Below, in pieces: positions 7,628 to 63,770 of a DNA stretch of 64,000 nt (the stretch's first letter is position 1; each line of letters opens with the position of its first letter). The notes beneath the pieces were generated by a model, which worked only from the letters and a program-made list of their open reading frames with translations, did not search any database and was not told the origin of the DNA. The stretch covers positions 930,001 through 994,000 of the forward strand of contig NZ_CAJGZP010000001.1 of NCBI RefSeq assembly GCF_904846155.1, given 5' to 3'. Position numbers and translations under genes: made by a program. Source of the DNA: Psychrobacter fulvigenes (GTDB lineage Bacteria > Pseudomonadota > Gammaproteobacteria > Pseudomonadales > Moraxellaceae).

Positions 7628-7717
7628 TTATAAAGCCCTAGACCTTGTGTCCATGTTATTAGACCTTGTGTCCATGTTATTAGACCTTGTGTCCATGTTA
7701 TTAGACCTTGTGTCCAT
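7628..7717 (-). CDS. Putative repetitive leader peptide upstream of the DMT permease
   Basis: The 21-bp repeat is an exact multiple of three, so on the - strand it reads as four consecutive seven-codon units, MDTRSNN three times and then MDTRS, ending RAL and TAA. This gives 29 residues, stopping 17 bases before the permease ATG. No good Shine-Dalgarno precedes the first ATG, and a second frame through the same repeats is also open, so this may simply be a repeat. A translated leader that tunes the permease is possible but unproven. Confidence 0.3.
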   Translation of the reverse strand: MDTRSNNMDTRSNNMDTRSNNMDTRSRAL

Positions 7718-7722
7718 GTTAT
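7639..7722. repeat. Four perfect tandem copies of a 21-bp unit
   Basis: The unit TAGACCTTGTGTCCATGTTAT occurs at 7639-7659, 7660-7680, 7681-7701 and 7702-7722 with no mismatch, indicating recent slippage expansion. It lies in the 5' region of the DMT gene. Confidence 0.97.
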
Positions 7723-31284: not shown

Positions 31285-31429
31285 CCAGCTGAGCTGATAG
31301 CTAAAGCTAGGCAATATATCAACGATTGTATTATATAAATCATTGTATATTGTCTAGCAAGCTTTATCAGTATCTAACCCAATACCTCTATCTCATTTGG
31401 CATTTCTATCTTATGTATGTTGCGATCTT

Positions 31430-31738
31430 ATGAAATATCTTAGCCAGTTTATGCTACTTGCTCTAGCCGTTGCGGTGCTGTTGGGACTGCAATATCAGTA
31501 TTGGCTGGGTGAAAATGGACGTTTTGAGCATTATAACTTGCTAACCGAAATTGAAGAGCAGCAGCGCTTGAATGACAACCAAGTCGCCGCAAACAATCTG
31601 CTACGTGCTGATGTGCAAGATCTAAAAAATGGCCTTGAAGCAGTAGAAGAGCATGCTCGTCTAGACTTAGGTCTGATTAAACCCAATGAGACTTTTATAC
31701 AGGTATCAACCGCACCCACGACTCACAGTCGTAATTAA
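31430..31738 (+). CDS. ftsB: Cell division protein FtsB (septum formation initiator family)
   Basis: 102 residues from the ATG at 31430: one N-terminal transmembrane helix (FMLLALAVAVLLGLQYQYWLG), then a periplasmic coiled coil (LTEIEEQQRLNDNQVAANNLLRADVQDLKNGLEAVEEHARLDLGLIKPNETF). The ending LGLIKPNETF is the FtsB/DivIC signature. It forms a complex with FtsL and FtsQ at the division septum. A longer TTG-initiated reading from 31397 is possible but adds residues not seen in the family. Confidence 0.92.
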   Translation: MKYLSQFMLLALAVAVLLGLQYQYWLGENGRFEHYNLLTEIEEQQRLNDNQVAANNLLRADVQDLKNGLEAVEEHARLDLGLIKPNETFIQVSTAPTTHSRN

Positions 31739-31832
31739 TGCTTTTACTATACGCTTTTCTTTTATATGTCATTTCTAGTAATGATATAGCCCATTTTAAG
31801 TTTTACAAACCTCCCTTTTTACTCTTATTGCC

Positions 31833-31916
31833 ATGGACATCCAACCATGAGCACCAAGCTGTGAACCCTAATTTATGAACAACAAGTTATGAACAACAAG
31901 TTATGAACACTAAACC
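31833..31916 (+). repeat. Six 14-nt units forming overlapping mini-cistrons into ispD
   Basis: Start codons occur every 14 bases at 31833, 31847, 31861 (GTG), 31875, 31889 and 31903 (ispD). Each of the first five opens a five-codon frame whose TGA overlaps the next start (ATGA or GTGA). Units 4 and 5 are identical (ATGAACAACAAGTT), and units 2, 3 and 6 are diverged copies. Because 14 is not a multiple of three, successive starts move through all three frames. No Shine-Dalgarno is visible before ispD, so ribosomes may reach it by stepwise reinitiation. Confidence 0.85.
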
Positions 31917-32649
31917 TTGTGTACATGCCATGATCGTCGCTGCTGGGCGTGGTAGTCGTTTTGGTGCGTCTATAGCCAAGCAATATACAATGCTACAAGG
32001 GCAGACACTATTACAGCATAGTGTCGCAAGGTTAGCATCTAGTGGATATATCAACGAGTGTCTATTGGTCATTGCTGCAGATGATAGTATCGCGCAAGGG
32101 TTGGATTTTGCCTTACCGATTCATTATGCTGTTGGTGGCGCTGAGCGTTGGCAGTCAGTACAAGCAGGCGTAGAAGCGATCATGAAGGCAGGCGCTGATG
32201 ACTCAGATTTGGTTTTGATACATGATGCAGCGCGCTCTGCTGTGTTGAGCCATGATATTGATCAAGTCATCGAAGCCGCCATGCTAGAGCCCTATGGCGC
32301 TATTTTAGCAGCCCCTGTCGCTGATACACTCAAGCAGTCTCAGCCTATCACTCCTGATACCCAATCAAAATCTGCAACCACCAGTAGTTCAAACGATTAT
32401 ATCGCGCACACGGTTGACCGTAATGGGATGTGGCAGGCACAGACCCCACAAGTCTATCGGCTCGATCAACTGTATCAAGTACTGACCCATGTCGGTGAGC
32501 AGCAGCTTGCTATTACCGATGAAGCCAGTGCGTTCGAGCATATGAATCTGCCCATTCGTTTGGTGACAGGCAGTCGCCAAAATATCAAACTGACTTATCC
32601 TGATGATGCACTCTTGCTAGAGGCAATCTTAACTGCTCAGAATAAATGA
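31903..32649 (+). CDS. ispD: 2-C-methyl-D-erythritol 4-phosphate cytidylyltransferase
   Basis: MEP-pathway enzyme making CDP-methylerythritol for isoprenoids. 248 residues. AMIVAAGRGSRFGASIAKQYTML is the CTP-binding loop, followed by VLIHDAARSAVLSHDID, VADTLKQ, TVDRNGMWQAQTPQVYRLD and TDEASAFEH, all family signatures. A loop of about 15 residues rich in Ser/Thr near residues 145-165 looks inserted. The start is the last step of the 14-nt start/stop ladder described at 31833-31916, and no independent ribosome binding site is seen. Confidence 0.95.
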   Translation: MNTKPCVHAMIVAAGRGSRFGASIAKQYTMLQGQTLLQHSVARLASSGYINECLLVIAADDSIAQGLDFALPIHYAVGGAERWQSVQAGVEAIMKAGADDSDLVLIHDAARSAVLSHDIDQVIEAAMLEPYGAILAAPVADTLKQSQPITPDTQSKSATTSSSNDYIAHTVDRNGMWQAQTPQVYRLDQLYQVLTHVGEQQLAITDEASAFEHMNLPIRLVTGSRQNIKLTYPDDALLLEAILTAQNK

Positions 32650-63380: not shown

Positions 63381-63770
63381 ATGTCAAATAAGCCTTTGAA
63401 TAACGATGAGATAGATAACATTCCATTGAGCAAGAAGGAACAAAAAAAGCAAGACAAGATAGATGCTGAGCGTAAAAAAGAACAAGATAAGATAGAGAAA
63501 GAGCGTCAAAAAGAGCAAGATAAAATAGATAAGAAGATTCAGAAAGAGCAAGACAAGATAGATAAGAAGCATCAAAAAGAGCTAGACAAGGTAGAGAAAA
63601 AACGTCAGAAAGAGCTGGATAAAATAGACAAAAAGATGCAAAAAATGCTGGATCAGATAAATCAAAAAGCTCAGAACAAGCAAGATAAAATAGATACTAT
63701 GGTTCAGAAAAGAAGATATAAGAAAAAAGGTAAGGTTGATAAACAACAAGATAAGAAATGGCAGTTCTAA
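63381..63770 (+). CDS. Lys/Gln/Asp-rich 11-residue-repeat coiled-coil protein
   Basis: 129 residues. Residues 24-111 are eight consecutive 11-residue units of the form [Q/L]-D-K-[I/V]-[D/E]-K-K-x-Q-K-E, for example QDKIDKKIQKE and LDKIDKKMQKM. The first four start with Gln and the next three with Leu. The last two are more diverged. An N-terminal polar segment and a basic C-terminal tail (KKKGKVDKQQDKKWQF) flank them. The hendecad spacing with Ile/Val at a fixed place predicts a long single helix or right-handed coiled coil. No Cys, signal peptide or membrane segment. Net charge is strongly positive. Function unknown; it sits among insertion sequences. Confidence 0.65.
   Translation: MSNKPLNNDEIDNIPLSKKEQKKQDKIDAERKKEQDKIEKERQKEQDKIDKKIQKEQDKIDKKHQKELDKVEKKRQKELDKIDKKMQKMLDQINQKAQNKQDKIDTMVQKRRYKKKGKVDKQQDKKWQF

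Follow-up and report, generated by a model that had tools for sequence, protein, structure and literature searches.

Ladders of overlapping short reading frames at 14-nt spacing before ispD and holC in Psychrobacter

Immediately upstream of ispD in Psychrobacter fulvigenes, start and stop codons overlap at every step of a series with a 14-nt period, and the locus raises the question of whether ribosomes may be handed along the series into the gene or whether a product of repeat slippage is merely tolerated there. The window (the whole stretch of DNA analyzed, 64,000 nt of contig NZ_CAJGZP010000001.1) carries on its plus strand ftsB (septum formation initiator; 31430..31738, ATG at 31430 read from the sequence; Pfam DivIC, E = 8.5e-19 on 31421-31735), 164 nt of intergenic DNA containing the ladder (31739..31902) and ispD (2-C-methyl-D-erythritol 4-phosphate cytidylyltransferase; 248 amino acids, 31903..32649; Pfam IspD, E = 1e-54). 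Start codons stand 14 nt apart at 31833 (ATG), 31847 (ATG), 31861 (GTG), 31875 (ATG) and 31889 (ATG), and the next is the ispD ATG at 31903. Each mini-ORF before ispD is five codons long and ends in a TGA that overlaps the following start by 4 nt; the start-stop overlap expected of termination-reinitiation coupling is present at 5 of 5 steps. The mini-ORFs, all on the plus strand, occupy 31833..31850 (ATGG to TGA), 31847..31864 (rung 1 of the repeat proper, ATGAGCACCAAGCT), 31861..31878 (rung 2, GTGAACCCTAATTT), 31875..31892 (rung 3, ATGAACAACAAGTT) and 31889..31906 (rung 4, again ATGAACAACAAGTT, its stop overlapping the ispD ATG). The initial annotation had described an exact 14-nt series of five five-codon mini-ORFs running into ispD, the fourth and fifth units being identical, and both statements agree with our reading of the sequence. 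The GTG of rung 2, which lies in the ispD frame, meets a TGA at 31876. ftsB itself is preceded by one coupled mini-ORF of six codons (31413-31433), which starts 17 nt upstream and whose TGA overlaps the ftsB ATG at 31430.

Because 14 = 3n + 2, duplicating 14 bp that begin with ATGA and contain no inner stop makes the start-stop overlap automatic. Tandem Repeats Finder reported a 14-bp array at 31873-31909. When the 164-nt intergenic DNA was shuffled with dinucleotide composition kept, and ATG, GTG or TTG starts, steps of 8-40 nt and overlaps of 4 or 1 nt were allowed, a coupled chain of at least five was obtained in 1 of 20,000 shuffles and no chain at all in 13,850. The leader folded no better than shuffled sequence (z = 0.58, calculated for the window only), a value that lends no support to a hairpin switch. 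Neither a terminator-like site nor a plus-strand promoter-like site was found by consensus scan between 31280 and 32000. Tandem repeats elsewhere in the window comprise a perfect fourfold 21-bp repeat (7639-7722) and a 33/99-bp array of A-rich units (63441-63694), possibly, at a guess, a lysine-rich coding repeat.

The first mini-ORF probably has an origin other than duplication. Relatives carry a block of about ATACTGTCATGGG.TC.AACC, the ATGG of which mostly stands 13 nt, in some 12 nt, before the first ATGA; in the window the ATGG at 31833 stands 14 nt before the ATGA of the first rung. This ATGG is probably the window's form of the conserved block, shifted into phase, and not another copy of the repeat, in which case the repeat proper would consist of four rungs (31847-31902) and the ispD start. 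Expansion of a 14-bp unit out of the 5′ end of ispD, as proposed earlier, is supported for the rungs and probably fails for the first unit. Directly 5′ of the first ATGA, many relatives have a block close to ATACTGTCATGGGnTCnAACC, regardless of rung number. It resembles a -10 promoter element, and a transcript starting from it would begin close to the first rung; the consensus scan of the window returned no plus-strand promoter at the block.

The ladder is not a quirk of one genome. With one genome per species sampled, 104 of 105 Psychrobacter genomes yielded an ispD locus, and the upstream DNA was read at all 104; counts across these related genomes are not phylogenetically independent. A coupled start (ATG, GTG or TTG) stands at exactly -14 in 61 of the 104; the remaining loci have another coupled ATG (4), an in-frame upstream ATG (7), none of these (10) or no ATG at the homologous ispD start (22). 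At least two consecutive 14-nt rungs with 4-nt overlaps precede ispD at 17/104 loci (two in 14, three in 2 and five in the window), and the leading rung number differs between species (0, 1, 2, 3 and 5). On an ispD gene tree of 101 loci (L120, L133 and L142 were excluded for short frames), rung number changed at least 14 times, a figure resting on a chain count that takes 4-nt overlaps and the shortest step only and so undercounts 14-nt rungs in L021, L089, L097, L101, L106 and L118, and on a single-gene tree built by a quick method with 28 of 98 inner branches drawn open. One tight clade contains a clear recent change, L004 having two rungs and L006 three. Three deep lineages (L108, L113 and L118) have a coupled start at -14 despite quite different spacers. 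Counting units across Psychrobacter had been proposed initially as a check that might refute the ladder; it did not do so, revealed varying copy number and led to the holC ladder described below.

Rung starts have been lost in single lineages. In the window's nearest relative on the ispD tree (L005, genome G012), the 14-nt rung start is ACG; an ATGG frame at -38 reaches a stop on the ispD start, and coupling may persist there by this other route. At L085 (G033) the usual ispD start is ACG, the ATG at -14 overruns the ispD start out of frame, and an in-frame ATG remains 24 nt upstream, so that a distal site seems usable. Family controls were loci from 30 of 57 genomes with a match, 23 of them from other genera (at one of the 23, L246, no start codon was located). 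No ATG rung was seen within 40 nt of ispD at the 23 loci from other genera; at three of these a coupled ATG or GTG start stands at a distance of 44-56 nt. At G028:C1:239830-240516, G040:C25:52176-52862 and G126:C3:212949-213623 a further IspD-like sequence, only distantly similar (29-33% identity), lies inside an open frame of 440-463 codons.

The start codon of the rung looks constrained. Fewest changes on the tree were counted for each column of the rung at -14 in 64 ungapped rows, which omit 37 of the 101 tree rows that have no NTG at the homologous start or were listed by hand for exclusion (deep lineages, and rows spaced at 17 or 24 nt). Within the rung start, A changed 5 times, T 3 times and G 3 times, and the next A changed twice; the spacer columns from -10 to -2 changed 8, 11, 4, 10, 13, 9, 14, 8 and 7 times (84 in total), column -1 changed 4 times, and each of the 14 columns upstream changed 8 to 15 times. 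For the rung ATG against the nine spacer columns the binomial value is 0.0009, with columns treated as equal and independent and column -1 omitted. The scarcity of stops inside the units was not counted as evidence, as an A directly following the ATG is enough to rule out a stop at codon 2. A leader peptide conserved in sequence was rejected: there are 43 distinct 14-mers among 91 ispD units, and most spacer columns change often.

An ATG occupies the homologous ispD start at 82 loci. At 74 of these the nearest upstream ATG lies within 44 nt, and the frames opened by these ATGs end exactly on the ispD start in 64 cases, lie in frame with it in 7, end earlier in 2 and overrun it out of frame in 1. 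Ten of the 82 have neither a coupled nor an in-frame upstream ATG in the range scanned, which, together with the rung starts lost in single lineages, argues against a strict dependence on the ladder. The ispD start is weak in Shine-Dalgarno terms, as had been noted for the window at the outset: its duplex is -0.2 kcal/mol, whereas 322 first-ATG ORFs in that genome have a median of -4.0, and 13% of them are weaker than ispD. A Shine-Dalgarno motif of at least 4 nt is present in 2 of 58 laddered ispD orthologs, compared with 58% of the 322 ORFs from the window's genome. The poor Shine-Dalgarno sequence expected of a coupled downstream start, which not all definitions of coupling demand, is found at ispD.

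A search of the genus for ATGA occurring three times at 14-nt intervals led to a second ladder, at holC (DNA polymerase III chi subunit), downstream of a gene that we take to be pepA. The sample comprised 91 of the 105 genomes, and a start motif located holC in 80 of these and missed 11. At least one 14-nt rung precedes holC at 42 of the 80 located starts and at least two at 10, with a maximum of four; in sequence the rungs are similar to the beginning of holC itself. In the genome of the window holC lacks a ladder. Measured between the upstream stop and the holC ATG, the distance without rungs is 10 nt in 23 of 38 junctions, 9 nt in 3 and 24-113 nt in 12; with one rung it is 39 nt in 17 of 32, 24 nt in 3, 38 nt in 3 and 51-79 nt in 9; with two rungs 38, 38, 52, 67 and 67 nt; with three 52 nt (3/3); and with four 66 nt (2/2). 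Only 10 of the 42 laddered junctions measure exactly 10 + 14n nt for n rungs. The commonest one-rung distance, 39 nt, equals 10 + 15 + 14, two in-frame ATGs sharing one 29-nt mini-ORF.

A forward walk that begins at the upstream stop and moves each time to the nearest ATG (limit 12 nt, ATG only, both chosen by us) arrived at holC in 54 of 79 cases, 26 directly and 28 via mini-ORFs; in 20 cases the path broke off, and in 5 it read across the holC start. Fifteen of the 28 mini-ORF routes are of one related type, a 29-nt mini-ORF with its first ATG at +10 and not two 14-nt steps. The first ATG after the upstream stop is at +10 in 23 of the 26 direct routes, in 23 of the 28 mini-ORF routes and in 51 of the 79 overall. 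Since this position is shared by laddered and unladdered junctions, the entry distance at holC has often been kept while rungs were added behind it. In G066 an unbroken chain runs from the upstream stop itself to holC through 1- and 4-nt overlaps. Column counts for holC were set aside, the rows having been chosen for ATGA at -14. In 17 located holC loci from other genera, a coupled ATG at -14 occurs in one, and GTG or TTG only in two. The one with ATG (L471, G139) carries a 14-nt near-copy of the holC start with a TAATG overlap and is a possible independent case.

The 14-nt geometry is not a genome-wide rule, a candidate rejected on 371 first-ATG ORFs (464 kb of the window's genome), which show no ATG peak at -14; an ATG is there in 4 of the 371, coupled in 2, one of them ispD. 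As a bare pattern, three-rung ATGA arrays with 14-nt spacing are not rare either: the window's genome contains 2 matches, the same number as for the reversed control pattern. In samples that are small, drawn from longer lists and mostly one locus per genome, the third rung opened an ORF of at least 80 amino acids in 12/61 arrays of period 14, 8/30 of period 17, 0/30 of period 11 and 1/30 of period 13; when any rung was counted, period 13 led genes in 3 of the 30 sampled loci. The twelve gene-leading arrays of period 14 are five ispD, four holC and three others. GA-rich sequence resembling a Shine-Dalgarno occurs in several of the period-17 gene cases, and the eight include one gene twice. Among 20 more period-14 matches, mostly picked as repeat-like, four lead genes (L343, L344, L356 and L358). 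Arrays of 14-bp ATGA units with no gene directly downstream occur at L148, L161, L329 and L353. The last of these (G051:C1, near 2577250) has thirteen consecutive 14-bp rungs of type ATGATAAGAAAATT, with the same period and start-stop geometry and no gene starting at the last rung.

We consider it probable, from the sequence comparisons above, that gene-start duplications have been kept where the new start couples to the next by termination-reinitiation. A tandem duplication of 14 bp, comprising the start codon and the next 11 nt, would place a new start upstream, from which five codons lead to a stop on the old one. Ribosomes would load at the first rung and be handed from rung to rung by termination-reinitiation to ispD, the ladder being transcribed and its rungs translated. 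Entry at holC would be the end of the upstream gene, and at ispD probably a start near the transcript 5′ end or a transcript reading through from ftsB. The ladder would survive since every extra rung keeps the junction coupled; frames overrunning the start out of phase are hardly seen. In E. coli gene pairs tested in PMC10666635, coupling needs no more than the final 15 nt of the upstream gene and drops steeply with distance: at 38 nt, two pairs lost 80-90% of their reinitiation coupling and a third pair all of it. A systematic study in E. coli, as summarized in a review (PMC12548453), saw coupling undiminished up to +25 nt. With published data so mixed, the strength of the distance effect is disputed, and rungs would be less needed if coupling is undiminished that far. 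A 14-bp insertion at a coupled junction may weaken coupling if it lacks a start and a stop of its own; the rungs supply both.

The main competitor, which we regard as somewhat unlikely, is neutral replication slippage that is merely tolerated, the rungs perhaps being translated without benefit; at gene starts only arrays of 3n + 2 (with a stop at the next start) or 3n (in frame) would escape counter-selection. The arrays lacking a gene directly downstream, the lack of an array at holC in the window's genome and the difference in rung number between L004 and L006 speak for such tolerance, as does the occurrence of gene-leading arrays at periods 14 and 17, with period 13 at just 1/30 by the third rung or 3/30 by any. 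It is opposed by the rung ATG, which changed less often than the spacer and upstream columns, by the coupled -14 start of the deep lineages with their different spacers, and by the first ATG at +10 in most of the laddered holC junctions that the walk completed. On balance we prefer serial termination-reinitiation, with selection against uncoupling keeping the ladder, to tolerance without benefit. Tuning is another matter. A translational rheostat driven by slippage, in which the output of ispD or holC is scaled by the reinitiation efficiency once for every 14-bp rung gained, appears distinctly unlikely. If it were true, heritable, reversible changes in copy number would set enzyme dose with sequence and promoter unchanged, and Psychrobacter would have an evolvable expression dial at several genes through serial reinitiation. 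The initial reading is supported in part, namely in the expansion of the repeat, the varying number of rungs, the apparent constraint on the rung start and the want of a clear Shine-Dalgarno at ispD; initiation on the rungs, dependence of ispD on serial termination-reinitiation and tuning by copy number are hypothetical.

Initiation could instead be direct, a 30S subunit binding the leader and starting at the ispD ATG, with the extra ATGs acting as decoys or as a standby site. A leader that folds no better than shuffled sequence, the 13% of 322 ORFs with a Shine-Dalgarno weaker than that of ispD and the ten loci with neither a coupled nor an in-frame upstream ATG speak for it; left unexplained are the 64 of 74 nearest upstream ATGs ending exactly on the ispD start and, at holC, the first ATG keeping its position, and we judge direct initiation very unlikely. 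Hardly probable at all is a ladder outside the mRNA; the repeat would then be a promoter or DNA feature, and transcription would begin at the last rung or downstream of it. The consensus scan of the window did find no plus-strand promoter upstream of the ladder, yet many relatives of any rung number have the -10-like block directly 5′ of the first rung, read-through from ftsB would include the ladder as the scan found no terminator-like site between the two genes, and at holC the stop of the upstream gene is just upstream in many genomes.

Among known systems, the nearest precedent is the mycobacterial MIRU. A review (PMC12548453) describes it as an apparently mobile short repeat at the start codon; the ORF it carries is coupled to the gene at -4 nt, a coupling that likely limits its impact on the gene. 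The ispD and holC ladders are likewise repeats at a start codon with a coupled ORF, but in Psychrobacter the 14-bp unit of ispD is not that of holC, each is similar to the start of its own gene, and the units form chains; a single dispersed, apparently mobile family was rejected, as the units of the two genes differ by eye. The overlap types of the ladder (ATGA, TAATG and TGATG) are those of termination-reinitiation coupling in general. The coupling cases compared from PMC10666635 are gene pairs, whereas here up to five five-codon ORFs stand in series in a species-specific number. The same review (PMC12548453) also describes a coupled short upstream ORF whose sole role may be to drive the next gene, in the part compared here a single ORF and not a tandem array of near-copies. 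A leader-peptide attenuator was rejected, given variable spacers, no terminator-like site and the fold value obtained for the window.

Phase-variable simple repeats in 5′ regions shift copy number by tandem duplication or loss, and the ladder changes in the same way. It differs in that a 14-bp rung leaves the ispD frame unshifted because ispD keeps its own start, and a phase-variable frame switch was rejected for this reason. Our literature search, covering titles and abstract openings, found no description of a tandem mini-ORF ladder of this kind.

We know of no test of whether a terminating bacterial ribosome reinitiates several times running on five-codon ORFs. Psychrobacter offers a natural series in which the same two genes carry differing numbers of rungs (ispD 0 to 5, holC 0 to 4) across many species, with start-codon losses and both in-frame and coupled variants among them, and this makes serial reinitiation testable. 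The ladder bears on the annotation of ispD and holC start sites in the genus, and it suggests how a gene start can absorb tandem duplications while keeping expression.
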